This document shows positions 7,710-35,923 of a stretch of DNA of 64,000 bases, piece by piece. The translations under genes were made by a program, and so were the position numbers. The notes under the pieces were generated by a model. It was not told the origin of the DNA. It searched no databases and saw nothing but the letters and a program-made list of their open reading frames with translations. The stretch comes from Cyclobacteriaceae bacterium (lineage in GTDB: Bacteria; Bacteroidota; Bacteroidia; Cytophagales; Cyclobacteriaceae): the NCBI GenBank assembly GCA_023151255.1, contig JAKLJG010000001.1:359599-423598 (forward strand), written 5' to 3'. How positions within the stretch are numbered: the first letter of the stretch is position 1; every line of letters begins with the position of its first letter.

Positions 7710-7786
7710 GGGGTCATAGCTCAGCTGGCTAGAGCGCTACAATGGCATTGTAGAGGTCGTGGGTTCGACTCCCACTGGCTCCACCA
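7710..7786 (+). tRNA. tRNA-Ala (anticodon GGC)
   Basis: The 77-base sequence folds into a full cloverleaf. The acceptor stem is GGGGTCA/TGGCTCC and the D stem GCTC/GAGC. The anticodon stem CTACA/TGTAG carries the loop ATGGCAT, and the T arm is GTGGG-TTCGACT-CCCAC. Loop positions 34-36 read GGC, decoding GCC and GCT. The acceptor stem contains the G3-U70 wobble pair that is the identity element for alanyl-tRNA synthetase, confirming alanine. Discriminator A and a genome-encoded CCA (7784-7786) are present. Confidence 0.97.
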
Positions 7787-7793
7787 CCACGTA

Positions 7794-7838: not shown

Positions 7839-7850
7839 TGACGAAAATCA
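7839..7850. promoter_or_regulatory. Weak Crp/Fnr-like half-palindrome upstream of ccoNO
   Basis: TGAC-GAAA-ATCA differs by one base from a perfect TGAT-N4-ATCA Fnr-type core. It lies about 100 bases before the ccoNO start. It is listed because clearer sites of the same pattern occur elsewhere in the window and a Crp/Fnr-type regulator is encoded beside this operon. TAGCTTTA at 7917-7924 resembles a -7 element, which would put the site far upstream of the transcription start. Weak evidence. Confidence 0.3.
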
Positions 7851-7952
7851 TCCCCTTCTGTAACCGAAGTCATAAAAGCGGGCAATTTCAATCTTCTACT
7901 TTTAAACCCAGACTTGTAGCTTTACCTGAATCAATTAACACTATCCCTGCCT

Positions 7953-10106
7953 ATGGAACTCGACAAATTCAGTTACGATAACAAAATCGTAAAAGCATTT
8001 ATTATAGCCACAGTTATTTTTGGCCTGGTGGGCATGCTGGTGGGCCTTACCATTGCCCTCCAGTTGGTTTGGCCGGTATTTAATTTCGAACTTCAGTACA
8101 CAACATTCGGGCGTATCAGGCCGCTGCACACCAACGCGGTAATTTTTGCCTTTGTTGGCAATGCCATGTTTGCCGGTGTGTACTACTCCATGCAGCGTTT
8201 GCTTAAAACCCGCATGTACAGCGATACACTCAGTTGGATTCACTTCTGGGGCTGGCAACTGATTATTCTTGCTGCTGCCATTACTTTACCGCTGGGGCTT
8301 ACAACATCAAAAGAATATGCCGAACTGGAGTGGCCGATAGATATTGCCATTACCTTAATATGGGTTGTATTCGGGTGGAATATGATTGGCACCATTCTCA
8401 GGCGCAGGGAGCAACACATGTATGTAGCCATCTGGTTTTACATCGCAACGTTTGTTACTGTGGCGGTGCTACACATTGTTAACTCCTTCGAAATGCCGGT
8501 GAGCCTGTTCAAAAGTTACTCCTGGTATGCCGGTGTACAGGATGCACTGGTACAGTGGTGGTATGGCCATAATGCCGTAGCCTTTTTCCTCACCACACCG
8601 TACCTGGGAATGATGTACTACTTCCTGCCCAAAGCGGCCAACCGCCCGGTGTATTCTTACCGGCTATCCATTATTCACTTCTGGTCACTCATCTTTATTT
8701 ACATCTGGGCTGGTCCGCACCACTTGTTATACTCTACTTTGCCTGATTGGGCGCAATCACTCGGAACAGTTTTTTCCATTATGCTTATTGCGCCTTCCTG
8801 GGGGGGTATGCTCAACGGTTTAATGACCCTGCGCGGTGCGTGGGATCGCGTACGTGAAGACGTGGTGCTGAAGTTTATGGTTGTGGCCGTTACTGCTTAT
8901 GGTATGGCTACACTGGAAGGGCCGTTGCTGTCGCTTAAAAATGTAAATGCCATTGCCCACTTTACCGATTGGATTGTGGCGCACGTACACGTAGGCGGTT
9001 TGGGCTGGAACGGCTTCCTGATTTTCGGCATGCTCTACTGGTTGGTTCCCCGAATGTGGAATACCAAAATCTGGTCACCCAAACTAGCCAACTTCCATTT
9101 CTGGATTGGCACGCTGGGCATCATCTTCTATGCTTTACCGATGTACATCTCTGGCGTTACCCAAAGCCTGATGTGGAAAGAGTTTAACCCTGAAGGCTTT
9201 TTGGTTTACAAAAATTTCCTGGAAACAACCGTACAGATATTGCCCATGCACATGCTGCGCGCATTTGGCGGTTTGCTCTACCTGACAGGCGCGATTGTAA
9301 TGACTTATAACCTGGTTAAAACAGCCTATGCCGGAAGTTTCGTTGCTAACGAAGCAGCCGAAGCAGCCCCGTTGGTTAAAACAGAATCAAGCAGTGGCGG
9401 CTGGCACCACTGGCTGGAGAGCAAACCCGTATTATTCTCCGCTTTAGCCCTGGTGTCAATACTGATAGGCGGTATTGTTGAAATGGTTCCCACTTTCCTG
9501 ATAAAATCAAATGTGCCGACTATTTCCAGTGTTAAACCCTATACGCCCCTTGAACTGCATGGCCGCGACATTTACATACGCGAAGGATGTGTAAGCTGTC
9601 ACTCACAACTGGTTCGTCCGTTCCGTTCGGAAGTGGAGCGGTATGATCCGCTGGGTGGCGAATACTCCAAGTCGGGTGAGTATGTGTACGACCATCCGTT
9701 CCTGTGGGGCTCAAAACGTACCGGCCCCGATTTACACCGCCTGGGGGGCAAGTATTCGGATAGCTGGCATTACAACCACATGCTGGCACCCGATGCAGTG
9801 TCAACCGGTTCGATTATGCCGGCCTATCCCTGGTTGTTTGAACAAGCGATTGATAAAACAACAACCGCTGCCAAGATAAAGGCACTTCGTACTATTGGCG
9901 TTCCTTACGAAGAAGGCTACGAAAGCCGTGCAAATGATGATTTAGATATGCAAGCCAGGCGCATGGCCGAGAACCTGCAACTGGAAGGCATTGAAGTAGA
10001 GCCGGATGCTGAAATTATTGCGCTGATCGCCTACTTGCAGCGATTGGGTAAGGATATTAAGGCATCAAAGACAGCCGATAATACTTTGTCAACAGGTAAC
10101 CAGTAA
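7953..10106 (+). CDS. ccoN: cbb3-type cytochrome c oxidase, fused subunits I and II (CcoNO)
   Basis: This 717-residue protein fuses the catalytic haem-copper subunit CcoN with the monohaem cytochrome CcoO. Residues 1 to about 480 form the 12-helix oxidase core. Metal-ligand histidines are visible in RPLHTNAVIF, WWYGHNAVAFF, WAGPHHLLY and IVAHVHVGGLGW. From about residue 525 the CcoO part follows, with the haem c site CVSCHSQLVRP and the axial methionine in GSIMPAYPW. The complex reduces O2 to water with high affinity and pumps protons. CcoNO fusions are common in Bacteroidota. It heads the cluster ccoNO-ccoQ-ccoP-ccoG-ccoH-tauE. Confidence 0.96.
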   Translation: MELDKFSYDNKIVKAFIIATVIFGLVGMLVGLTIALQLVWPVFNFELQYTTFGRIRPLHTNAVIFAFVGNAMFAGVYYSMQRLLKTRMYSDTLSWIHFWGWQLIILAAAITLPLGLTTSKEYAELEWPIDIAITLIWVVFGWNMIGTILRRREQHMYVAIWFYIATFVTVAVLHIVNSFEMPVSLFKSYSWYAGVQDALVQWWYGHNAVAFFLTTPYLGMMYYFLPKAANRPVYSYRLSIIHFWSLIFIYIWAGPHHLLYSTLPDWAQSLGTVFSIMLIAPSWGGMLNGLMTLRGAWDRVREDVVLKFMVVAVTAYGMATLEGPLLSLKNVNAIAHFTDWIVAHVHVGGLGWNGFLIFGMLYWLVPRMWNTKIWSPKLANFHFWIGTLGIIFYALPMYISGVTQSLMWKEFNPEGFLVYKNFLETTVQILPMHMLRAFGGLLYLTGAIVMTYNLVKTAYAGSFVANEAAEAAPLVKTESSSGGWHHWLESKPVLFSALALVSILIGGIVEMVPTFLIKSNVPTISSVKPYTPLELHGRDIYIREGCVSCHSQLVRPFRSEVERYDPLGGEYSKSGEYVYDHPFLWGSKRTGPDLHRLGGKYSDSWHYNHMLAPDAVSTGSIMPAYPWLFEQAIDKTTTAAKIKALRTIGVPYEEGYESRANDDLDMQARRMAENLQLEGIEVEPDAEIIALIAYLQRLGKDIKASKTADNTLSTGNQ

Positions 10107-13190: not shown

Positions 13191-13862
13191 ATGTTAACCG
13201 CAGCCTTTTTGTTAGGATTTACCGGTAGCCTGCACTGCATCGGCATGTGTGGCCCGCTGGCTGTTCAGGTGCATGCGCCAAATAAAGAAAGACAGTTATT
13301 GAACCGGGGGCTTTACAATGCAGGCCGGGTTATTAGCTACAGCCTGCTGGGTTTGGTTGCCGGAGTGTTCGGCCACCTGATTGAAATAAGCGGGTGGCAG
13401 GGCTGGTTTTCTATTATTTTGGGGTTAGCTGTATTCAGTGTTTTGTTCTTCAATCAGGTAGAAAAGTGGGTGTTCCCAAAAGCTTTTTCTGCAATAAACT
13501 TTGTTAAGCAAGGTATTTCAAAATTTATGCGGCAGCGAAGTGCAGGTTCAGCCGTAATGATGGGCGTATTGAATGGATTTTTGCCGTGCGGACTGGTTTA
13601 TGCAGCCGTTGTGCTTTCGCTTGTACAAACCAGTTGGATTAACAGTATTTTGGTAATGTTGATGTTTGGAATGGGAACGATACCGGCCATGTTGATCGCA
13701 GCTTGGTCGTACACCAAACTAGTCGGGGCCATTCCGGTTCCGGTAAAAAGAATTCAGTTCTTTTTCGCAGGAGTTATGGCTTTTATCATGATCTGGCGCG
13801 GTGTTTCAATCGAAGGCTTGTTTTCAATTGACCAAACAGTGCTTTGCTACCCGTTGCATTAA
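13191..13862 (+). CDS. TauE/SafE-like (DsbD_2 type) membrane protein of the cbb3 cluster
   Basis: This is a 223-residue protein with about six membrane helices. It opens with GFTGSLHCIGMCGPLA (about 9-24), and NGFLPCGLVYAAVV (about 126-139) repeats the Cys/Gly-rich half motif. This is the sulfite-exporter-like / UreH-like transmembrane family that regularly ends cco clusters and is suspected to act in copper or thiol transport for oxidase assembly. The function has not been proven. Its stop codon overlaps that of the convergent regulator gene by 2-3 bases, so neither transcript has a separate terminator between them. Confidence 0.85.
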   Translation: MLTAAFLLGFTGSLHCIGMCGPLAVQVHAPNKERQLLNRGLYNAGRVISYSLLGLVAGVFGHLIEISGWQGWFSIILGLAVFSVLFFNQVEKWVFPKAFSAINFVKQGISKFMRQRSAGSAVMMGVLNGFLPCGLVYAAVVLSLVQTSWINSILVMLMFGMGTIPAMLIAAWSYTKLVGAIPVPVKRIQFFFAGVMAFIMIWRGVSIEGLFSIDQTVLCYPLH

Positions 13863-14920
13863 TGCCGGGCCACATTCCATTTGATTACCTGTTCCAGTTT
13901 GTTGGGGTGCAGCACTTTTATCTTGCCGCTTTCAATATCAATAATACCTTCCTCCCTGAAGTCAGAAAGCACACGGATAACAGATTCGGAGGCGGTGCCC
14001 ACCATTTTGGCCAGGTCATCGCGCGATACATGCACAAACTCGCCTTCTTTTATCTGGTGTACTTTTAAAAGGGCCTCGGCTGTTCGTTGCCGCACCGAAT
14101 TATAGGCCAACGTGAGCAATTGTGATTCTTTTTCTTCAATTTTTTTACAAAGCAACGATACGAACGATCGCGATAGTTCGGGGTGGCTGTGCAACAGGGT
14201 AAGAAAATCGTGGCGGGGTATGGCAATCAGTTCGCTGTCTTCCATGGCTACGGCCGATTCGGTGTAATTGGTATTTTCCAGAATGGGCTCGTACCCGAAG
14301 AAATCGCCTGTGGTGTACAGGTTAGTGATAAATTCTTTGCCATCGGCATTGGTTTTGAAGGCCTTAACATTTCCTTTCTGTAAAAAATAAATAAAGTTAG
14401 GAAGCTCACCTTCCATAAAGATGCCTGCCTTCTTTTTAAACACCCGTGTTTTTTTGTCTTTACACAGGTCTTTAAGATTTAATATCCGCTGGGCATCTTC
14501 AATAAATTCGTTCAATCCTGAAGCAGTGGCTTCGTACTTTTTTTTGAGCAGGGCAACTTTATTGAGCCGTGCCTCTACGGCATTTAGCAGGTCGGTATCG
14601 TCAAACGGTTTGGTCAGGTAATCATCAGCACCCAGGGTCATGCCTTTGCGGATGTCAGCTTTTTCGGTTTTGGCGGTAAGAAAAATAAACGGAATGCTGG
14701 CCGTTTCAGGTTTCTTGCTCAGTATGTGAAGTACACCATATCCATCAAGTTCGGGCATCATGATATCGCAAATAATCAGGTCGGGCAGGTTTTTCTGGGC
14801 AAGGTCAACACCAATTTTCCCGTTTTCAGCAGTGATTACTTCATAATTCGCCAGTGAAAGTATTTCGCTGGTGTTTTCGCGAACTTCGTGGTTATCCTCA
14901 ATCAGCAGAATTTTTTTCAT
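13859..14920 (-). CDS. Response regulator fused to a Crp/Fnr-type transcription factor
   Basis: This is a 353-residue fusion. Residues 1-120 are a receiver domain with Asp8-Asn10, phosphoacceptor Asp52 in ICDIMMPE, a Thr in FLTAK (80-84) and Lys104. A helical linker follows, then a cyclic-nucleotide-like beta-roll (about 160-255). A winged helix at about 275-345 ends with the recognition helix SESVIRVLSDF. Glu and Arg at the DNA-reading positions match the Crp/Fnr class, while the Ser used by Fnr is replaced by Ile. No N-terminal Fnr iron-sulfur cysteines are present, so signalling probably comes through phosphorylation by the kinase encoded 8 bases upstream. Likely targets are the TGAY-N4-RTCA sites nearby. 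Confidence 0.92.
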   Translation of the reverse strand: MKKILLIEDNHEVRENTSEILSLANYEVITAENGKIGVDLAQKNLPDLIICDIMMPELDGYGVLHILSKKPETASIPFIFLTAKTEKADIRKGMTLGADDYLTKPFDDTDLLNAVEARLNKVALLKKKYEATASGLNEFIEDAQRILNLKDLCKDKKTRVFKKKAGIFMEGELPNFIYFLQKGNVKAFKTNADGKEFITNLYTTGDFFGYEPILENTNYTESAVAMEDSELIAIPRHDFLTLLHSHPELSRSFVSLLCKKIEEKESQLLTLAYNSVRQRTAEALLKVHQIKEGEFVHVSRDDLAKMVGTASESVIRVLSDFREEGIIDIESGKIKVLHPNKLEQVIKWNVARH

Positions 14921-14928
14921 GGTATGTG

Positions 14929-16206
14929 TTAAGTAGTAGGCAGGATAATGGTAAAGGTACTTCCTTTTCCTTCCTGGCTGGTAAAATTAATTTCTCCATT
15001 TAATAATTCCACGTACCGCTTTACAATGTTCAGGCCTAGCCCGGTGCCCTGAACCTGGCCTGCGTTACTGGCCCTGAAGAAGCGTTCGAAGAGGTGCTTT
15101 ATATCGTCTTTCGGGATGCCGATGCCCTGATCGATTACAGCAATTTCAAAATGATTTTCCCAGAAGGTAACGTTGATTGCAATAGACTTGCCCGCTTCGG
15201 AGTATTTGCTGGCATTGGAGATAAGGTTAAACAGAATATTTCGTAACACCTTTGGGTCCGTATGGATGGATTTTTCCTTTCCGATAAGCTGAAGCGTCAG
15301 GTTTTGCTTCTCTTTCAGTTGGGGTTTCATTTCTTCGATAACTTCGTGCAAGAAGTCTCTGAGGTATAGTGGTTCCTTGGCAATGTCAATCCGGCCTTCC
15401 TCCAGTTTGCCCAGCGAAAGAAAATCATTCAGGATGTTGGTCAGGTGACTCACCGATGACTTAATCCGCTGGATGTGTTTATCGATTTTCGCCAGGTCGC
15501 CCTTTTCTTTATACTGCATAACCAGCGAAGCCGAGCTGAGTACGGTGCTGAGCGGGGTGCGGAATTCGTGCGAGGCAATGGAAACAAACTTGCTTTTCAG
15601 TTCATTGAGTTCGCGCTCGCGCTCAAGTGCATGCTTTACCTCCTCCTCCGCTTTTTTTCGTTCGGCAATCTGCTCCTGTAGAAAATGATTGGCACGCTCA
15701 AGGTCTTCAATGGATTTGTTGAGTGCATCGGTTCGCGCCCGTACTTTTCGTTCCAGTTCGGCAGCATACAGCAGTAATTGTTCTTCGCTGCGCTTTACAG
15801 CTTCTTCAGCTTTTTTGCGTTCGGTAATGTCAATGATAAAGGCAATTACGATGAACTGATTACTTATCTGGTGATGACTCAGGCTTACCTCTACCGGAAA
15901 TTCGGTACCGTTTTTCCGAACAGCCAATAAATCGCGACCAACACCCATTTTACGGGGCGAAGGTGCCTGCCGAAACGACTCACGGTGCTTAGCATGCCCT
16001 TCGCGGTACCGCTGCGGCAGCAATACTTCAAGCGGTTTTCCGGGCAGCTCACCCGCCTGGTACCCAAACATTTGTTCAGCGGCCTTGTTGGCCAGTTGGA
16101 TTATTCCGGCCGCATCTACCATCAGTATCCCCTCGGCTGAACTTTGAAAAATCTCGCTCAGAGTTTCGGGAGAGGCAAATGATAATTTGAATTGCGGTTC
16201 GTTCAC
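14929..16206 (-). CDS. PAS-domain sensor histidine kinase
   Basis: This is a 425-residue cytosolic kinase with no membrane helix. A PAS domain occupies about 15-130 and a coiled coil 130-200. The dimerisation helix carries phosphoacceptor His213 in ASHEFRTPLS. The HATPase domain shows N-box NLISNASKYS, G1 DQGIGIP and G2 GTGLGLNIV. The PAS region LPQRYREGHAKHRESF followed by KMGVGRDLLAVRKNGTEFP resembles FixL and has a His at the haem-ligand position. The same pattern occurs in many non-haem PAS proteins, so oxygen sensing is only a possibility. It is cotranscribed with the receiver-Crp/Fnr protein, next to cbb3 oxidase, like a FixLJ analogue. Confidence 0.93.
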   Translation of the reverse strand: MNEPQFKLSFASPETLSEIFQSSAEGILMVDAAGIIQLANKAAEQMFGYQAGELPGKPLEVLLPQRYREGHAKHRESFRQAPSPRKMGVGRDLLAVRKNGTEFPVEVSLSHHQISNQFIVIAFIIDITERKKAEEAVKRSEEQLLLYAAELERKVRARTDALNKSIEDLERANHFLQEQIAERKKAEEEVKHALERERELNELKSKFVSIASHEFRTPLSTVLSSASLVMQYKEKGDLAKIDKHIQRIKSSVSHLTNILNDFLSLGKLEEGRIDIAKEPLYLRDFLHEVIEEMKPQLKEKQNLTLQLIGKEKSIHTDPKVLRNILFNLISNASKYSEAGKSIAINVTFWENHFEIAVIDQGIGIPKDDIKHLFERFFRASNAGQVQGTGLGLNIVKRYVELLNGEINFTSQEGKGSTFTIILPTT

Positions 16207-16233: not shown

Positions 16234-16245
16234 TGATAAAAATCA
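16234..16245. promoter_or_regulatory. Crp/Fnr-like site 1 (TGAT-N4-ATCA)
   Basis: TGAT-AAAA-ATCA has perfect inverted 4-base arms with the 4-base spacer of Fnr boxes. It lies between the divergent kinase and universal stress genes, 22 bases (two helical turns) from site 2. TATATTTC (minus, 16212-16219) is a possible -7 element for the kinase operon. Confidence 0.55.
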
Positions 16246-16255
16246 GTATTCTGTA

Positions 16256-16267
16256 TGATGCATATCA
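16256..16267. promoter_or_regulatory. Crp/Fnr-like site 2 (TGAT-N4-ATCA)
   Basis: TGAT-GCAT-ATCA is a second perfect site. Its centre is about 30 bases upstream of TATGTTAG (16292-16299), a near match to the -7 element for the plus-strand stress gene. That is the spacing of a class II activator such as Fnr at -41.5. Confidence 0.55.
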
Positions 16268-16314
16268 CGCCTAGTGCCCGGCCAAAACCTGTATGTTAGC
16301 AAAAGTTACCCTAG

Positions 16315-16740
16315 ATGAACCCTGTACTTTGCGCACTTGATTTTTCAGAAGCCTCGCCAGCTGTATTGAAGGCAGCCGTTGATCTGGCTGCACATTTTAA
16401 TACGCGGCTGATTGTTTTGTACGCCTATCGGATACTTCCGGAAAATGAAACCATCACGGATTACAGGCGGGCTATTGTGAATAGAGCGCAGGAAGATTTT
16501 GCGCACCTGGAAAAGAAACTTGGCCTTAACGGCTCGGTACCCTACGAATTTCGGGCCGAAGTGGGGTTTCTTTCCGACCGGATTAGAAGTTCAGTGCAGG
16601 CAAACCGCGTAGGTTTTGTGGTAATCGGGCAGCGCCTGGCCTCTGAAATAAATGAACAAAAAGGGATGACTCTGGAGGAATTTATAGACCAGGCCGCAGT
16701 ACCGGTTTTGATTGTGCCTGAAATGCAGGTGCAGCCATAA
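16315..16740 (+). CDS. Universal stress protein, single-domain
   Basis: This is a 141-residue UspA-fold protein. It begins VLCALDFSEASPAVLKAA, the usual first strand and helix. The C-terminal ATP-loop is degenerate: VVIGQRLASEINE replaces the G-2x-G-9x-G(S/T) motif, so it may not bind ATP. It stands divergent from the kinase/regulator operon, behind two Fnr-like sites, so expression under low oxygen is plausible. A two-domain relative follows 78 bases later. Confidence 0.87.
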   Translation: MNPVLCALDFSEASPAVLKAAVDLAAHFNTRLIVLYAYRILPENETITDYRRAIVNRAQEDFAHLEKKLGLNGSVPYEFRAEVGFLSDRIRSSVQANRVGFVVIGQRLASEINEQKGMTLEEFIDQAAVPVLIVPEMQVQP

Positions 16741-16818
16741 AATTTGGGTTAATTCTGTAAAGAAAGGTTATAACTAACATGAAAGTTTTTATCTTTAAAA
16801 ACATTAATCAGCAGCGCC

Positions 16819-17673
16819 ATGAAAAAAATTCTTGTACCTATTGACTTCTCTAAAACAGCCCAAACGGCAGCCGAGGTGGCAGCCGGCATTGCCAAAAAAG
16901 CCGGTGCCGAGTTGATATTACTTCACGTGATAGAGGAAGGCTCCAAAGGCTCCTTTGCCGTAACCGGTGAGATTCAATACGCAGATATGGAGGAGAAGTT
17001 GTTTATGTTGAAACTCATCGAGCGATCAAAAAAACAGATGGCCAAATTTGCAGCCGACTCGATGTTTAACGGAGTAAACGTGAAGCCTGAGTTACGAATT
17101 GGTTCGCCCTTTCACGGTATGCGCACCATTATTGCCGAACATAAAGTAGATTTAGTGGTGATGGGTACCACCGGTGTTAGCGGAGCCACCGAAATGATCA
17201 TCGGCTCAAACACCGAAAAAGTAGTACGGCATGCCAAGTGTCCGGTACTCACTATACAGAAAAAGCCTACTCGTACAAACTTTAAAAACATCGTTTATGC
17301 TACATCCATGAGTAAGGATGAAGAGGTCTTCTCCCGCATTGTAAAGCGTGCCCAGGCTATGTACGACTCAACCATTCACCTGGTGCGCATTAATACACCC
17401 GGCAATTTTCAACGTGATGCTGTAGTGAAAAAATACATGCAGGATTTTGCCAAGAAGCTGCAATTAAAGAATTACACAATAAACGTGTTCAACGATGTGA
17501 CTGAGGAAGAGGGTATCATTTACTTTGCCGACAGCATTCATGCCGATATGATTGCGATGGCTACACACGGCCGCACAGGTTTTGCCCATGTACTGGCGGG
17601 CAGTATTGCTGAAGATGTGGTAAACCACAGCAAGCGCCCCGTACTCACCTTTGTGGTGAAGCATAGAAAATGA
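16819..17673 (+). CDS. Universal stress protein with two tandem Usp domains
   Basis: This is a 284-residue protein made of two Usp domains (about 1-148 and 150-284). Both keep an ATP-binding loop of G-2x-G-9x-G(S/T) type, GTTGVSGATEMIIGSN in domain 1 and THGRTGFAHVLAGSI in domain 2. Tandem Usp proteins are common in Bacteroidota, often in low-oxygen regulons. TATCTTTA at 16790-16797 resembles a -7 element, so this gene may have its own promoter besides read-through from the first stress gene. Confidence 0.92.
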   Translation: MKKILVPIDFSKTAQTAAEVAAGIAKKAGAELILLHVIEEGSKGSFAVTGEIQYADMEEKLFMLKLIERSKKQMAKFAADSMFNGVNVKPELRIGSPFHGMRTIIAEHKVDLVVMGTTGVSGATEMIIGSNTEKVVRHAKCPVLTIQKKPTRTNFKNIVYATSMSKDEEVFSRIVKRAQAMYDSTIHLVRINTPGNFQRDAVVKKYMQDFAKKLQLKNYTINVFNDVTEEEGIIYFADSIHADMIAMATHGRTGFAHVLAGSIAEDVVNHSKRPVLTFVVKHRK

Positions 17674-18877: not shown

Positions 18878-19324
18878 TCAGGCCGGTTTCAGCACTTTAA
18901 TAACCGGTTTCATTTCTACTTTTGAGTTGATCGAGTTGGTAATTAAACAGGCTGCTTCTGCTTTTTGAAGAATCCGCTCGGCCCGCGCATAGTCTTCTTC
19001 ACGGGTAATTACCAGTTCCGGCTCCAGCAGCACCTCCGTCATCCGGTATTTGCCGTCAGCCTGGTCTAGTTTGCCGGTGGCTTTACAGGCAAAATGATCA
19101 AACATAAGTTTTGAATTTTCAGCTATAGCCAAAAAAGTAGTCATCAGGCAACTGCTTACTGCGGCAGTAAATAAATGTTCGGGCGACCAAATTTTTTCAA
19201 TGCCTTTCGGAAAGGGCGGGGGTGTGGCTACAGCCAGTCCTTGATCAAGTTCATCAGAATAGAGGGTCCCTTTCCGCTCCGCATCCCAGCGCAGATTAAC
19301 GGTATAATTATGTGTGTAAGTCAT
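18878..19324 (-). CDS. OsmC family protein
   Basis: This is a 148-residue OsmC-fold protein. The two redox-active cysteines are in AVSSCLMTTF (about 55-64) and AEAACLIT (about 122-129). WSPEHLFTAA is the conserved active-site helix. OsmC/YhfA-type proteins reduce organic hydroperoxides or handle related thiol chemistry in the cytosol. The promoter region contains the 17-bp palindromic element also found before korA, 47 bases ahead of the start codon. Confidence 0.9.
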   Translation of the reverse strand: MTYTHNYTVNLRWDAERKGTLYSDELDQGLAVATPPPFPKGIEKIWSPEHLFTAAVSSCLMTTFLAIAENSKLMFDHFACKATGKLDQADGKYRMTEVLLEPELVITREEDYARAERILQKAEAACLITNSINSKVEMKPVIKVLKPA

Positions 19325-19365
19325 GATTTGAAATTTTATGTAAGGTGCACAACAGTTGCGTGAAG

Positions 19366-19382
19366 AACTATGACTTCAGTCA
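19366..19382 (-). promoter_or_regulatory. Crp/Fnr-like palindrome upstream of osmC
   Basis: AACTATGACTTCAGTCA on the plus strand contains TGAC-TTCA-GTCA, a perfect inverted repeat with Crp/Fnr spacing. It matches the element before korA at 15 of 17 positions, in the same orientation relative to the minus-strand gene. It also lies 49 bases before the plus-strand yitT start. Confidence 0.55.
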
Positions 19383-20369: not shown

Positions 20370-22856
20370 ATGATGAACCGACTTGCCCTTGTTTTTTGTA
20401 TTGGATTATCTGTAACTGCATCGGCACAAACCAGCCGGAAAATTGCAAAGATTGATTCTGCACTCACTTTCCTGCACCAACAACAACTGTTCAATGGGGT
20501 TGTGCTGGTAGGGGAAAATGGCAAGGTGCTATATAAAAAGGCTTTTGGCATGGCTGACCCGGTAACCGGCCGGCCGTTAACTACAGCCTCCTCGTTTAAC
20601 CTGGCCTCGGTTTCCAAACAGTTTTATGGCATGATGATTATGATTCTGAAGGAACAAGGCAAACTGAAGTATGACGACCCCGTTGTAAACTTCTTCCCCT
20701 CATTCCCATATCCAACCATAACTATTCGCCATTTGCTTAACCAGGTTTCCGGTTTGCCGGAATATTTTGACCTGGTCGACCGGAATATGAGCCTGCTTGA
20801 CACGCTGACCAATAGTATGGTGCTTGATTTTTTTGCAGCAAAGAAACCTGAGTTGCTTTTTGAACCGGGCGAGCGCTGGGTGTATTGCAATACCAATTAC
20901 ATTTTGCTGGGTTCGCTAGTTGAAAAGGTATCGGGTATGCCGGCCGACCGGTTTTTCAACCAATCAATTGCCAATCCATTAAAGTTAACCAATGCCTACG
21001 TGTACACGCTGAAAATGGGCCCGAGTCCTGCCGGAAGGGTAATTGGTTTTCGCTATGAAGGAGGCAAGCCCGTAATAAACGATCTGAATCAGTTTGATGG
21101 CGTTGTTGGCGATGGGAATGTGTATGCTTCGGCTGAAGATTTATACAAGTGGGACCAGGCTTTGTATACTGAAAAGCTGGTAAGACGCGCAACACGCGAT
21201 GAAGCGTTTACAAGCGGAAAACTGAATTCAGGTGAAAACCATCAGTACGGATTCGGCTGGCGTATTGATGAACCCGGCAAAATTGTTTCGCATACCGGTA
21301 GTTGGGTAGGGTTTCGCAACCTAATTGTCAGGTATGTTGATAAAAATCAAACAATCATTATTTTATCAAATGGTACGAACAGTGCTGCGCGGGTGGTACG
21401 CGACATCTGGGAAGGAAAGTCGTACAAACTTCCAACTACTCACCTGATTACCAATGTGAAAATTGTGAACGGAACAGGACTTCCGGCATCCACCGGCAGT
21501 GTACGTGTTGTTGACGACCGGATAGCTGACATTGGCAGCCTGACACCGCTGCCAGGTGAAACAGTTACCGATGGAAAAGGATACGTGTTGGCCCCCGGCT
21601 TCATTGATAGCCACAGTCACCACGACTGGGGGCTGAAGGAAAACCCATCCTGCGTGGCGGCCACCAGTCAGGGTATTACTACCATCGTTGTGGGACAGGA
21701 TGGCGGTTCCTACCCGATAGACTCAATCCGGTATTTGCTCAGCCTGCAACCGGTAAGCGTTAACATCGCCACGTTTACCGGCCACGCGTCATTACGGGAA
21801 AAAGCTATGAGCGGTGATGTACTCCGGCAATCCACACCCGATGAATTGTTTGCCATGAAGGACATGCTGAAGCAGGAAATGGAAAAGGGTTCGCTTGGCC
21901 TTTCTACCGGACTGGAGTATGAACCGGCCTTTTATGCCAGCCGCGATGAGGTAATTGAACTGGCTAAGGTAGCTGCCTCGTATGGTGGTCGCTACATCAG
22001 TCACATCCGCAGCGAAGATGTGCATGTTGATAGGGCGCTGGAAGAGCTGATTGATATCGGCCGTCAGGCCAACATACCCGTACAGATTTCACATTTCAAA
22101 ATTGCCCTGCGCAGCAAGTGGGGTACTTCGGCATCGCTGATCGCCTCCCTTCAATCGGCCCGCCAGCATGGTGTAACTGTTACAGCCGATGTGTATCCGT
22201 ACAGCATGTGGGGATCAACACCACGGGTGCTGTTTCCGAAAAAGGATTTTACCAGCCTGGCCAGTGCGCGTTATGCAACGAATGAATTATTTGATCCGGC
22301 CGCATCGGTAATAGCTTGGTTTCCGGCAAACAAAACGTATGAAGGAAAAACGATTACCACGATTGGTAAACTTAACAATGAAGATGCAGCCCTGGCCTTA
22401 CTGCGCATCATCCGGGAGGGTGAGGCAGCCGGTGAAAGTGGCTACATTGTAGCCACATCCATGAGCGAAACCGATATTAAAAATTTTTTACTGTGGGAAC
22501 ACAGCAGTATCTGTTCCGATGGTTCTATTGACGGCCACCCGCGTGGGCATGGCGCTTTTACGAGAGTACTTGGCCGGTATGTGCGCGAGCAAAACCTGAT
22601 GCCGCTGGAAAAAGCGGTGTATAAAATGACGGGGCTTCCGGCCCAAAATCTAGGTATTAAGGATCGCGGCTTGATTCACCCCGGATACTATGCCGACCTG
22701 GTATTATTTAACCCGGAAACTGTTATGGATAATGCCACCATTGAAAATCCCACGGCATTATCTGCCGGAGTAGAGAAGGTTTGGGTAAATGGCAACCTGG
22801 TGTACCATAATCAACAGGCTGTTAAAAATTACCCGGGTGTATTGATAAGACGATAA
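20370..22856 (+). CDS. Exported fusion of a class C beta-lactamase-like hydrolase and an N-acyl-D-amino-acid deacylase
   Basis: This is an 828-residue protein with a signal peptide ending near TASAQ (16-20). Residues about 25-350 are a serine hydrolase of the beta-lactamase/DD-peptidase fold. It has S80-V-S-K83, YCN in RWVYCNTNY and HTG in VSHTGSWVG. From about 355 an amidohydrolase barrel follows, with the metal site HSHHDW in LAPGFIDSHSHHDW, YISHIRSEDV and HPRGHGAFTRVLGRYVRE, as in D-aminoacylases. The pair suggests periplasmic cleavage of D-amino-acid peptides or N-acyl-D-amino acids. The two domains normally occur as separate proteins. The stop abuts the convergent hypothetical gene with no gap. 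Confidence 0.9.
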   Translation: MMNRLALVFCIGLSVTASAQTSRKIAKIDSALTFLHQQQLFNGVVLVGENGKVLYKKAFGMADPVTGRPLTTASSFNLASVSKQFYGMMIMILKEQGKLKYDDPVVNFFPSFPYPTITIRHLLNQVSGLPEYFDLVDRNMSLLDTLTNSMVLDFFAAKKPELLFEPGERWVYCNTNYILLGSLVEKVSGMPADRFFNQSIANPLKLTNAYVYTLKMGPSPAGRVIGFRYEGGKPVINDLNQFDGVVGDGNVYASAEDLYKWDQALYTEKLVRRATRDEAFTSGKLNSGENHQYGFGWRIDEPGKIVSHTGSWVGFRNLIVRYVDKNQTIIILSNGTNSAARVVRDIWEGKSYKLPTTHLITNVKIVNGTGLPASTGSVRVVDDRIADIGSLTPLPGETVTDGKGYVLAPGFIDSHSHHDWGLKENPSCVAATSQGITTIVVGQDGGSYPIDSIRYLLSLQPVSVNIATFTGHASLREKAMSGDVLRQSTPDELFAMKDMLKQEMEKGSLGLSTGLEYEPAFYASRDEVIELAKVAASYGGRYISHIRSEDVHVDRALEELIDIGRQANIPVQISHFKIALRSKWGTSASLIASLQSARQHGVTVTADVYPYSMWGSTPRVLFPKKDFTSLASARYATNELFDPAASVIAWFPANKTYEGKTITTIGKLNNEDAALALLRIIREGEAAGESGYIVATSMSETDIKNFLLWEHSSICSDGSIDGHPRGHGAFTRVLGRYVREQNLMPLEKAVYKMTGLPAQNLGIKDRGLIHPGYYADLVLFNPETVMDNATIENPTALSAGVEKVWVNGNLVYHNQQAVKNYPGVLIRR

Positions 22857-32004: not shown

Positions 32005-32574
32005 TTAGGTAAAGTTTTCCATGGGGTTGCGTGGTTCTGTCACCGACTCACCCCGTATTTTCTTTTGCAGTTGCAAAATACCGTACAGCAAGGCTTCAGG
32101 ACGTGGCGGGCAGCCGGGCACATACACATCAACCGGTATAATGTGATCAGCCCCTTTCACTACTGAATAGGTATTGTAATAAAACGGTCCACCCGAAGTA
32201 GCGCAAGCGCCCATGGCAATTACATATTTCGGGTCGGCCATCTGGTCATATAATCTTTTCAGTACCGGTGCCATTTTATTAACAATGGTTCCGGCAATCA
32301 CAATCAAATCGGCTTGCCGCGGAGTGGCCCGTGCTACTTCAGTACCGAACCGGCTCCAGTCGTGCCGGCTGGCACCGGTGGCCATCATTTCGATGGCGCA
32401 GCAACTGGTGCCGAATACCAGCGGCCACAATGAGTTGGCGCGCGCCCAGTTCACCACATTATCTACCGAAGTGATGACAATGTTGCTTCCCGGCCCACGA
32501 ACAACCTGGCCGGGAAAATCTTTCAGCAGTTCTTCATGTTGCTGTGGGCTTATGGTGTTTTGGTTTACTCCCAT
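32005..32574 (-). CDS. nuoB: Complex I subunit NuoB (cluster N2)
   Basis: This is a 189-residue subunit holding the terminal [4Fe-4S] cluster N2. Its four ligands are the double cysteine in [11 protein letters not shown] (about 54-64) and the single cysteines in GACATSGG and [24 protein letters not shown] lies between them. It passes electrons to quinone. Its start overlaps the nuoA 3' end by 10 bases. Confidence 0.96.
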
Positions 32575-32915
32575 GTTAATGCTTTCTTTTTCCAGGCGTA
32601 CAACAGCCCTAAACCCAATACAAGGAAGAATATCACAATCTCAATAAAGGCAGCAAGCCCAACCTGCCGCATGGCAACGGCCCACGGAAAGATGAAAACC
32701 GTTTCCACATCAAAGATTAAAAAGATAATAGCAAAAAGGTAGTAGCCTACGCGGAACTGAATCCACGATGTTCCCTTTGTAGGGATGCCGCATTCGTAGG
32801 GTTCATCCTTCTGCAGGTTTATTGATTTAGGTGCCACCAGGTTCGAAACCAAAATACCTGCTCCCACCATAATGATGGCGCAAATAAAAAATATCACCAA
32901 TGCTTCGCTACCCAT
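32565..32915 (-). CDS. nuoA: Complex I subunit NuoA
   Basis: This is a 116-residue protein with three membrane helices. [11 protein letters not shown] (about 38-48) and [16 protein letters not shown] (about 65-80) are the ND3/NuoA signatures. It starts 2 bases after the korB stop, which ties complex I to the 2-oxoacid:ferredoxin oxidoreductase genes in one transcript. Confidence 0.96.
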
Positions 32916-32917
32916 GC

Positions 32918-33949
32918 CTATTTAATTTCCCATGTTTCGCCACTCTTCAGCAGGTCGTCAACCGAGTGGTATTTAGCATTTTTGGTAATTTTTTCCCGCT
33001 CTTCGGCAATGGCCTCATCGTACGTTTTAGCACGCACTTCGCGGATAACGCCCAGCGCCATGGGGAAGTGCGGAGGGGCCATGCGGGCCAGCATTAAATG
33101 CAGGGTAGGATCCTCAGCGTGTGCATCGTGTACCAGTATATCCTTTTCGGTGATGCCATTTTCGCCCAGCGTTACCACCTCCAGTTTAAGCCCATTCAGG
33201 CGGATGCCTTTTTTATTTTCTTTTCCGAACAGCAGGGGTTGACCGTGCTTTACATGCAATTGAAAGTCATCGCGGTTTTCACGAGCCGTTACCGCAGCAT
33301 GAGCATCATCGTTAAAGATGACGCAGTTTTGTAATACCTCCACCAGCGAGGTGCCCATGTGCTTGGCTGCATGCACAAATATTTCGGTCATCAGTTTAGG
33401 GTTGGTGTCGATGGTGCGGGCATAAAAAGTTCCTTGCGCCCCGATAACCAGTTCAGCGGCATGGAACGGCCGCTCGATGCTACCATACGGGGTTGACTTG
33501 GTAACCAGCCCGGTGGGTGAGGTGGGCGAGTATTGCCCCTTGGTCAGTCCGTAAATTTCATTATTAAAAAGAATGATGTTGATGTCAATGTTTCTGCGCA
33601 GGGCGTGGATAAAATGATTTCCGCCAATGGCCATGGCATCGCCATCGCCTTGAATTTCCCACACACTGAGTTTCGGGTTGGCCAGTTTAACACCTGTAGC
33701 CACGGCCGGTCCGCGGCCGTGGATGGTATGAAAGCCGTAGGTGTTCATGTAATACGGAAAACGCGCAGCACACCCGATGCCTGAAATAAACACCACATTT
33801 TCGCGTGGGATGTTTAATTGAGGCAATGCGTTGGTCATGGCTGATAGTATCGAGTAGTCGCCACAACCGGGGCACCAGCGCACCAACTGGTCGCTTTCAA
33901 AATCCTTTTTGGTAAGTTTTTGTTGCGGTATATCGATGGTGTTTTCCAT
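32918..33949 (-). CDS. korB: 2-oxoglutarate (2-oxoacid):ferredoxin oxidoreductase, beta subunit
   Basis: This is a 343-residue thiamine-diphosphate subunit. VRWCPGCGDYSIL (about 23-35) is the N-terminal signature, and GDGDAMAIGGNHFIHALRRN (about 100-119) and FNNEIYGLTKGQYSPTS bind thiamine diphosphate and Mg. The short [4Fe-4S]-binding cysteines of the family are in WCPGCG and FISGIGCAAR. Sequence style matches KorB, oxidising 2-oxoglutarate with CoA to succinyl-CoA and reduced ferredoxin; other 2-oxoacids are not excluded. It begins 3 bases after korA. Confidence 0.92.
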   Translation of the reverse strand: MENTIDIPQQKLTKKDFESDQLVRWCPGCGDYSILSAMTNALPQLNIPRENVVFISGIGCAARFPYYMNTYGFHTIHGRGPAVATGVKLANPKLSVWEIQGDGDAMAIGGNHFIHALRRNIDINIILFNNEIYGLTKGQYSPTSPTGLVTKSTPYGSIERPFHAAELVIGAQGTFYARTIDTNPKLMTEIFVHAAKHMGTSLVEVLQNCVIFNDDAHAAVTARENRDDFQLHVKHGQPLLFGKENKKGIRLNGLKLEVVTLGENGITEKDILVHDAHAEDPTLHLMLARMAPPHFPMALGVIREVRAKTYDEAIAEEREKITKNAKYHSVDDLLKSGETWEIK

Positions 33950-33952
33950 GTG

Positions 33953-35812
33953 TTAGTCTTTTAGGTGGTTAATGAAAACCTCTTTTAATTCAGTAACAAG
34001 AAAAGGCTGCCCCTGGATTTTGTTATACGAAAGAATATTTAGGCCGGGGAATTTGCTGCGGAGAAGAGAAGCAAACTGCCCCATGTTCAGTTCGCATACC
34101 AGTATTTTATCGTATTTCTCAAAAATTTGCTGCGTGTTTTTTGGCAGTGGGTTGATGTAGTTAAAATGAACGAAATCAATTTTTTTATTGGCTTGTTGCA
34201 ACTCTTTTACTGCAGTGAGTAAACCGCCATATGTACCTCCCCAGCCTACTACCAGCAGTTTGCCATCGCCTGTGCCGATTCGTTCCAATTCAGGAATGTA
34301 ATTGGCTACGCGTGCAACTTTTTCGGCACGGGTGCGAACCATTTTTTCGTGGTTCTGCGGGTCGTACGAAACATTGCCGGTAAGGTCTTGTTTTTCCAAG
34401 CCGCCAATACGATGCTCCAGCCCGGTCGTTCCTGGAACGGCCCACGCACGGGCCAGTGTTTCCGGATTGCGTGCATAAGGATGGTAAGTTCCATTAGTTT
34501 TTTGTGGCTCGTTTATTTTTATGGGTGGTAAGTCTGCCAGTTTAGGAAACTTCCACGGTTCCGAACCATTAGCCAGGTAGCCATCGGTAAGCAAAATGAC
34601 GGGCGTCATATGCTCTATGGCCAGTTTCACTGCCCGATAGGCAAATTCAAAGCAGTTGCTGGGTGTGCTGGCTGCGATAACAATGGCAGGGCTTTCGCTG
34701 TTACGGCCATACACGGCAATGTTAATATCAGCCTGCTCGGTTTTTGTAGGCAGCCCGGTAGAAGGACCGCCCCGTTGCACATCTACAACAACCAGCGGAA
34801 CTTCAGCCATCACAGCCAGACCAATAGCCTCACCTTTCAACGCAATACCCGGTCCGCTGGATGTGGTAACGCCCACCTGCCCGGCATAACTGGCGCCTAT
34901 AGCTGAACACACGGCTGCAATTTCATCTTCGGCCTGCATGGTAATTACGCCCAGATTTTTATGGCGCGATAATTCATGTAGAATATCCGAAGCCGGTGTA
35001 ATCGGGTAGGAACCAAGAAAAAGTTGTTTGCCCAGTTTTTCGGCAGCGGCCATCAACCCCCAGGCGGTAGCAGTATTTCCGGAAACGTGGCGGTAAACAC
35101 CTTTCTCAATAGAGGCAGGCGGTACCTTATAACGGGCCGGCAGTGCTTCGATGGTTTCGGCATAATGATAACCGGCATTCAGCGCGCGCTTGTTCCCTTC
35201 AGCCAAGGCCGGAGTTTTGCGGAATTTGTCTTCAATGTATTTCTCGGTTTCCTTTAACGAGCGATCGAACAGCCAGTACATCATGCCCAGGGCAAACATG
35301 TTTTTCGAGCGCATGATGCTCTTGTTGTCGAGTTGTAGCCCTTCCAGTGCCGCTTTGGTGAGTGATGAGATGGGAGCTTCAACTACGTTGTAGTCGTTCA
35401 GTGTTCCGTCTTCGAGTGGATTTGTTTTAAACCCGGCTTTTTCGATGTTGCGATCGACAAAAGCATCCATGTCTATAATGATGTTGCCGCCTTTGCGCGC
35501 AAACTGCAGGTTTGATTTAAGAGCTGCAGGGTTCATGGCCACCAGTACATCGGCCTGATCGCCCGGAGTGTAAATATCAATCTTGCCAATTTGTACCTGG
35601 AAGCCCGATACGCCTTCCACGGTTCCCTGTGGTGCCCGTATCTCAGCCGGAAAATCCGGAAAAGTAGCCAGGTCGTTACCCCATAAGGCCGAGGTAAAAC
35701 TGAATTGCGACCCGGTAAGCTGCATACCGTCTCCTGAGTCCCCGGCAAACCGGATTACCACTTTTTCCAGTTCTTTGGTGGTTTTTGTGCCATTTACCAG
35801 CGTATCATCCAT
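33953..35812 (-). CDS. korA: 2-oxoglutarate (2-oxoacid):ferredoxin oxidoreductase, fused gamma-alpha subunit
   Basis: This is a 619-residue protein with the gamma domain (about 1-190, VIRFAGDSGDGMQLTG) joined to the alpha pyrimidine-binding domain (about 215-619). SYPITPASDILHEL, VTTSSGPGIALKGEAIGLA and VDVQRGGPSTGLPTKTEQAD are typical of KorA-type enzymes. With KorB it generates low-potential ferredoxin from 2-oxoglutarate. It is the first gene of the korAB-nuoABCDHIJKLMN operon. A Crp/Fnr-like palindrome lies 100 bases upstream, between it and a divergent ferredoxin gene. Confidence 0.93.
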   Translation of the reverse strand: MDDTLVNGTKTTKELEKVVIRFAGDSGDGMQLTGSQFSFTSALWGNDLATFPDFPAEIRAPQGTVEGVSGFQVQIGKIDIYTPGDQADVLVAMNPAALKSNLQFARKGGNIIIDMDAFVDRNIEKAGFKTNPLEDGTLNDYNVVEAPISSLTKAALEGLQLDNKSIMRSKNMFALGMMYWLFDRSLKETEKYIEDKFRKTPALAEGNKRALNAGYHYAETIEALPARYKVPPASIEKGVYRHVSGNTATAWGLMAAAEKLGKQLFLGSYPITPASDILHELSRHKNLGVITMQAEDEIAAVCSAIGASYAGQVGVTTSSGPGIALKGEAIGLAVMAEVPLVVVDVQRGGPSTGLPTKTEQADINIAVYGRNSESPAIVIAASTPSNCFEFAYRAVKLAIEHMTPVILLTDGYLANGSEPWKFPKLADLPPIKINEPQKTNGTYHPYARNPETLARAWAVPGTTGLEHRIGGLEKQDLTGNVSYDPQNHEKMVRTRAEKVARVANYIPELERIGTGDGKLLVVGWGGTYGGLLTAVKELQQANKKIDFVHFNYINPLPKNTQQIFEKYDKILVCELNMGQFASLLRSKFPGLNILSYNKIQGQPFLVTELKEVFINHLKD

Positions 35813-35906
35813 AGCTGTTCAATTTAGGTCTGTTAAGTTACATCACCCGCTTCATATTAACTAAGGCCGGTGAGGTTGGGCGATGCTAATTTTATTGTCT
35901 ATTTTT

Positions 35907-35923
35907 AACTATGACTGAAGTCA
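35907..35923 (-). promoter_or_regulatory. Crp/Fnr-like palindrome between korA and the ferredoxin gene
   Basis: AACTATGACTGAAGTCA contains TGAC-TGAA-GTCA, a perfect inverted repeat; with flanks it reads ATGAC-TGAA-GTCAT. It is 15/17 identical to the osmC element and has the same orientation relative to the minus-strand gene. The ferredoxin ATG is 26 bases away on the other side, so one bound regulator could affect both promoters. Confidence 0.55.

Follow-up and report, generated by a model that had tools for sequence, protein, structure and literature searches.

The window analysed here is a 64-kb stretch of Cyclobacteriaceae DNA. It contains genes for a cbb3-type oxidase, a two-component pair, Usp-family proteins, an OsmC-family protein and a kor-nuo operon, and short palindromic sites lie in front of these genes. 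The sites, the predicted core promoter elements and the genes are as follows.

7839..7850, plus strand: putative ccoNO operator TGACGAAAATCA
7861..7872, plus strand: degenerate second putative ccoNO operator TAACCGAAGTCA, 22 bp downstream of the first
7897..7904, plus strand: predicted ccoNO -7 box TACTTTTA, 24 nt from the second operator
7953..10106, plus strand: predicted target, fused cbb3 oxidase CcoN-CcoO, then ccoP, ccoG-like and fixH-like genes to 13165
13859..14920, minus strand: response regulator with receiver, cNMP-binding and HTH_Crp_2 domains, probable reader of the sites
14929..16206, minus strand: PAS histidine kinase whose PAS domain resembles that of FixL, just upstream of the regulator and its probable partner
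16234..16245, no strand assigned: putative kinase/usp operator TGATAAAAATCA, upstream copy for usp (-63.5 class)
16256..16267, no strand assigned: second putative kinase/usp operator TGATGCATATCA, 22 bp nearer usp
16292..16299, plus strand: predicted usp -7 box TATGTTAG, 24 nt from the second operator
16315..17673, plus strand: predicted target, two Usp-family genes (16315-16740 and 16819-17673)
18878..19324, minus strand: predicted target, OsmC-family gene
19340..19347, minus strand: predicted osmC -7 box CACCTTAC, weak (3/6), 23 nt from the operator
19371..19382, minus strand: putative osmC operator TGACTGAAGTCA (read towards osmC)
32565..35812, minus strand: predicted target, korA (33953-35812), TPP subunit (32918-33949) and first nuo gene (32565-32915), with more genes following
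35881..35888, minus strand: predicted kor-nuo -7 box TAGCATCG, 23 nt from the operator
35912..35923, minus strand: putative kor-nuo operator TGACTTCAGTCA (read towards korA)

CcoN and CcoO are apparently fused in a 717-aa ORF (7953-10106), with a COX1 domain at residues 11-442 and a FixO domain at 485-702. A tRNA-like stretch, judged by eye, lies upstream of the cco box at about 7713-7788, and an 828-aa ORF at 20370-22856 combines a beta-lactamase-family domain with amidohydrolase domains.

A sequence-only reading of the window had drawn attention to two 17-bp elements, AACTATGACTGAAGTCA at 35907-35923 and AACTATGACTTCAGTCA at 19366-19382. The first lies between korA (start 35812, minus strand) and a ferredoxin ORF (start 35950, plus strand), the second between osmC (start 19324, minus strand) and a YitT-family gene (start 19431, plus strand). 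Gene starts diverge around each element, and both are therefore divergent promoter regions. We confirmed both elements at these positions, their identity at 15 of 17 positions and the TGAC-N4-GTCA repeat common to them, which in full is TGACT-N2-AGTCA. The further claim that they point the same way relative to their minus-strand genes holds for the AACTA flank only, which is on the same side in both and is gone in most relatives; it does not hold for the 12-bp cores, since these are reverse complements of each other.

The 17-mer itself did not stand as the shared unit. By our own estimate hundreds of pairs agreeing at 15 of 17 positions are expected by chance in 64 kb, and such a pair is unremarkable in itself. 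Strict patterns were counted in the 3.17-Mb genome, a scan suggested in the sequence-only reading, and compared with a reversed control pattern. The strict core TGACTNNAGTCA occurred 4 times against 2 for the control (two of the four places, L001 and L004, being within ORFs), TGACNNNNGTCA 20 times against 31, and CTATGACTNNAGTCA with up to 2 mismatches on both strands 31 times against 58; with fewer than 2 mismatches the genome scan found only the two window copies of CTATGACTNNAGTCA. As none of these counts exceeded the control, the 17-mer, 15-mer and 12-mer strict forms were rejected as genome-wide motifs.

The real element is a looser palindrome, TGAY-N4-RTCA (fourth base C or T), and it stands above chance in its intergenic placement, its conservation and its promoter spacing. 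The window has nine copies, five of them intergenic by our gene list (7839 before ccoNO, 16234 and 16256 between kinase and usp, 19371 before osmC and 35912 before kor), where intergenic DNA makes up 4.7% (P 2.4e-5); a simple longest-ORF rule places the 35912 box inside a probably spurious 122-aa ORF and gives four of nine. That rule was used to call ORFs in the scripted counts, so the following intergenic fractions are approximate: 5/13 boxes against 0/32 for four control palindromes in a 280-kb sample of the genome (P 4e-4), and 159/238 boxes against 31/262 control palindromes at the best 80 loci out of at least 568 relatives of the Crp part of the regulator, in which 9% of the DNA is intergenic. 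With its outer A and T added, the box (ATGAYNNNNRTCAT) occurs 21 times in the genome against 6 for the control, several of the 21 copies falling within ORFs. With its inverted TGA-N6-TCA arms, its dyad symmetry and its place in promoters, the element behaves as a Crp/Fnr-type operator would, which agrees with the assignment made in the sequence-only reading.

That kor-nuo and osmC share the element was borne out by its persistence upstream of their relatives. Upstream of osmC the relaxed box was present at all 11 loci with at least 68% identity (our own included), at 14 of 20 with at least 54% identity and at 16 of the 30 examined in total. In front of fdx/kor, 9 of 13 loci had it, again including our own; this set excludes two of 15 ferredoxin loci (L078 and L079), which were weak matches and had no hit. 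Six control palindromes scored 0 in both sets. At the osmC and kor sites alike the TGAY-N4-RTCA arms persist in relatives and the spacer and flank vary. The ccoNO box recurs in the two relatives in which the ccoNO start is covered.

No target is more constant than the kinase-regulator promoter. Its box was found in 16/16 genomes of the same genus in which this promoter is covered, and in 4 of the 9 examined outside the genus, one of which was represented by 61 nt. Across the best 80 of the at least 568 relatives, which were kept as named loci and include Ohtaekwangia, Chryseolinea, Fulvivirga, Emticicia, Dawidia and many MAGs, 24 loci without an adjacent kinase with an N-terminus were set aside; 51 of the 56 testable loci carried the box, compared with 0-2 for control palindromes and 0.96 for mononucleotide shuffles. 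Given this constancy, autoregulation by the receiver-Crp/Fnr protein would be the simplest reading.

Promoter geometry was determined from the flanks of intergenic boxes in 116 sequences (the window, 18 stretches of relatives, 17 regulator loci and the 80 named loci). Near-identical flanks were removed, leaving 326, and TAnnTTTG was scored at 5/6 or better. This motif lay exactly 23 nt downstream of the box in 52 of the 326 flanks, 45 nt in 67 and 46 nt in 20, with 0-11 flanks at each remaining distance, counts that are not of independent events because many of the flanks are orthologous promoters around regulator genes. In the 45-nt class, 55 of 57 non-redundant cases had a degenerate TGA-N6-TCA (up to 2 mismatches) that followed the first box at exactly 22 bp, while each of the other offsets tested between 14 and 30 gave 0-6. 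A centre at -41.5 is the class II activation position, and -63.5 is about two helix turns upstream of it. In a Flavobacterium psychrophilum start-site study, TAnnTTTG is placed at -12 to -5 in the available part of the text (PMC9723704); from this placement the box centres are predicted to be at -41.5 and -63.5. The 23-nt peak, combined with the published -7 position, thus puts the box at the class II position on predicted starts.

The families differ in how cleanly they follow this spacing. The best distance from box to -7 box is 23 nt for osmC and kinase and 45 nt for usp and cco, while in the kor family 23 nt ranks only third, behind 17 and 33, and kor is not a clean case. Six relatives have TAGCATCG, TAGCATCA, TAAACTAG or TATACTAG at the kor -7 position (seven rows with our own; L105 and L107 are not included). 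The osmC -7 box is better in relatives (CATATTTG, TTTCTTTG, CAACTTTG), and three more distant OsmC homologues that have the box carry TAGGTTTG, TAAGTTCG and TACCTTTG at 23 nt. The ferredoxin and YitT genes were rejected as targets, having no -7 box at an activating distance towards either gene; the best distance in the ferredoxin direction is 19 nt, and a yitT hit is present in only two of the stretches of relatives examined. Searched as one pattern with up to 1 mismatch and without regard to neighbouring genes, box plus -7 box matched 10 times against 0 for the control in our own genome and 812 times against 188 in 32 genomes carrying the regulator; with 2 mismatches the figures for our own genome were only 107 against 73.

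The predicted target set is wider than that of the sequence-only reading, and takes in the cbb3 oxidase, the kinase-regulator operon itself and the usp genes. In our own genome, spacing-matched sites before feoA and two thioredoxin genes, and one 238 nt before a nap-like molybdopterin oxidoreductase, mark further candidates; sites also lie before a PPK2 gene and before the genes of a CBS-domain protein (two boxes) and a Cys/Met-type PLP enzyme, both of these named by eye. A box at 14403-14414 of locus L180 lies between two genes that were judged by eye to be kynurenine 3-monooxygenase-like and kynureninase-like. Instead of the joint control of energy metabolism and peroxide defence proposed earlier, the theme of the set looks like low-oxygen respiration. 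A role for a MarR/OhrR or HxlR protein in controlling osmC was considered and set aside, since respiratory genes unrelated to osmC have this box in front of them too.

The best candidate reader, as the sequence-only reading had also proposed, is the receiver-Crp/Fnr protein encoded at 13859-14920. It has a cNMP-binding fold and an HTH_Crp_2 domain with an E..R recognition helix, as expected of a Crp/Fnr protein. Its phospho-acceptor D52 and the residues E312, I315 and R316 of the recognition helix are unchanged in 79/79 homologues, whose alignments begin at the N-terminus, by residue 10 at the latest, and extend at least to residue 330. The protein is without the FNR cysteine set: its Crp part has two cysteines, which are not conserved as a set. 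Among the 25 NCBIfam matches listed there was no model at cut-off for regulator or kinase.

On this evidence we propose that a Crp/Fnr-type activator, centred at -41.5 and next to RNA polymerase, binds TGAY-N4-RTCA where the promoter has the Bacteroidota -7 box TAnnTTTG, and so would act by class II activation. Some divergent promoters would have a better box centred at -63.5, a further 22 bp upstream. Its targets within the window would be ccoNOP, osmC, kor-nuo, and the kinase-regulator operon with usp. Phosphorylation of the receiver-Crp/Fnr response regulator would come from the FixL-like PAS kinase, whose gene lies just upstream, the phosphorylated regulator would activate its own operon, and the signal would most likely be low oxygen. 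We put the probability of this explanation as a whole at roughly 0.7. Taken alone, the identity of the operator and its class II position are very probable; that the receiver-Crp/Fnr regulator is the main reader, whether or not it is the only one, is likely, and oxygen as the signal is favoured somewhat less firmly.

Several other explanations were weighed against this one. One is that the two 17-mers resemble each other by chance alone, as parts of unrelated promoters. This fits the missing genome-wide excess of the strict patterns and the many 15/17 pairs expected in 64 kb; yet the arms are kept at both sites in relatives while flank and spacer change, and the controls score 0. Chance does account for the extra letters (AACTA and the spacer), and conservation opposes it for the box, so that as an account of the box we consider it very improbable. 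Another possibility is that the main reader is a different Crp/Fnr protein (one of L093-L096) and the receiver-Crp operon merely one of its targets. Our own genome has five HTH_Crp_2 matches, and L094 and L096 also have E-x-x-x-R recognition helices. At about 1498-1560 of L162 (G000:C39), two overlapping or adjacent boxes and a perfect -7 box lie at and just behind the end of the L094 gene; a search among ORFs of at least 80 aa did not find a gene for them to serve. Moreover, 27 of 59 relatives' genomes are without a full-length receiver-Crp/Fnr regulator, and in 26 of these 27 the box-plus-(-7) matches exceed the control (561 against 176 summed), with a strong motif excess in G017 (80 against 12) and G032 (105 against 25). 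Genomes with and without the regulator differ modestly and in the expected direction (P 0.006 and 0.011, for genomes that are not independent), and motif excess was rejected as a cross-genome marker of the regulator on account of this modest difference. ATGAYNNNNRTCAT is at least 3 times its control in eight regulator-less genomes (G017, G020, G032, G034, G036, G039, G049 and G058), in which another Crp/Fnr protein probably reads the box. Because regulator-less genomes also show both the motif and the spacing, the box is probably a lineage-wide Crp/Fnr operator that other family members read where the regulator is missing. Against a different main reader stands the constancy of the kinase-regulator promoter as a target (51/56). 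An L096-type Crp protein occurs in both G004 and G013, the regulator in G004 alone, and neither genome has a box at kor/fdx; ATGAYNNNNRTCAT occurs 15 times against 3 for the control in G004 and 6 against 5 in G013, but the comparison is mixed because the spacing pattern favours the box in both (12 against 3 and 5 against 0). On balance a different main reader seems improbable.

The circuit may also be right and its signal something other than oxygen: without heme, the PAS domain could respond to redox state, to energy or to a different ligand. FixL has a proximal heme-ligand histidine and two further residues of note, Arg206 and Arg220. FixL is among the best PDB matches of the kinase PAS (2cmn, 8e-17), but the PAS of a multi-sensor kinase not named FixL (10jx, 8.7e-17) matches equally well, with a histidine likewise at the aligned position. 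In the kinases, Arg206 has no kept counterpart and the Arg220 place is kept in only 47/68, whereas 64/68 retain the histidine that aligns with the heme ligand of FixL. The cbb3 oxidase, usp, feoA and a ferredoxin-dependent oxidoreductase are, moreover, targets as in FNR/FixK regulons, as far as these are described in the available part of PMC4999443. We regard a signal other than oxygen as unlikely, though more than a formality. Low oxygen, sensed by the FixL-like kinase and passed to the receiver-Crp/Fnr regulator, remains our preferred reading, and the interpretation first drawn from the sequence is partly supported, its assignment to the Crp/Fnr type and the receiver-Crp protein being correct in the main.

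The proposed circuit was compared with known systems. As with FNR/DNR-type operators, the predicted centre is at -41.5, as in class II activation; unlike them, the site does not require outer TT/AA, its core promoter is TAnnTTTG and the probable regulator is without the FNR cysteine set. FNR/DNR-type operators (TTGATnnnnATCAA) have the same inverted TGAY...RTCA arms and 4-bp spacer in the available part of PMC1274295. According to the same part of that text, HcpR of delta-proteobacteria binds wyTTGACnnnnGTCAArw, in which TTGAC-N4-GTCAA contains the core of both sites, but controls hcp/frdX, and the description there mentions no receiver domain; HcpR2 in most Bacteroides has GTAACnnnnGTTAC. A further parallel is the FixL-FixJ-FixK cascade of Alphaproteobacteria, which likewise has a PAS kinase, the FixL that the kinase found here resembles, a Crp/Fnr-type output and, in the available part of PMC4999443, the cbb3 oxidase and two-component genes among its targets. 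There a separate FixJ switches on fixK in two steps, whereas here receiver and Crp/Fnr parts are in one protein; the FnrN/FixK consensus is TTGANCNNGATCAANG in that text, and the site found here is TGAY-N4-RTCA without the outer TT...AA. Crp/Fnr regulons of an anammox community were treated in PMC8510549, with carbon sensing predicted for members of the Flavobacteriales and Saprospiraceae, and the term 'receiver' was not found in the available part of its text. A search by title and abstract, with most subscription journals outside its range, found no paper on this receiver-Crp/Fnr regulator.

By analogy, the cbb3 oxidase, usp and kor-nuo genes, together with the further candidates, resemble the low-oxygen sets of FNR/FixK as far as PMC4999443 presents them. 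More tentatively, and at somewhat less than even odds, a one-step oxygen circuit may be widespread in Cytophagales-type Bacteroidota, in which a heme-PAS kinase phosphorylates a FixJ-FixK-like fusion that directly activates its targets from boxes at -41.5 and -63.5 on TAnnTTTG promoters; these targets would be its own operon, the cbb3 oxidase, usp, osmC and kor-nuo, and probably also iron uptake and thioredoxin genes. What is new here is the correct motif, the precise distance that separates it from the Bacteroidota -7 box, and a probable reader of the FixJ-FixK-like fusion type. For Cytophagales-type Bacteroidota the analysis provides a simple list of targets of what would be low-oxygen control; it also shows where on a TAnnTTTG promoter a Crp/Fnr activator would be placed, and points to the FixJ-FixK-like fusion as the regulator.
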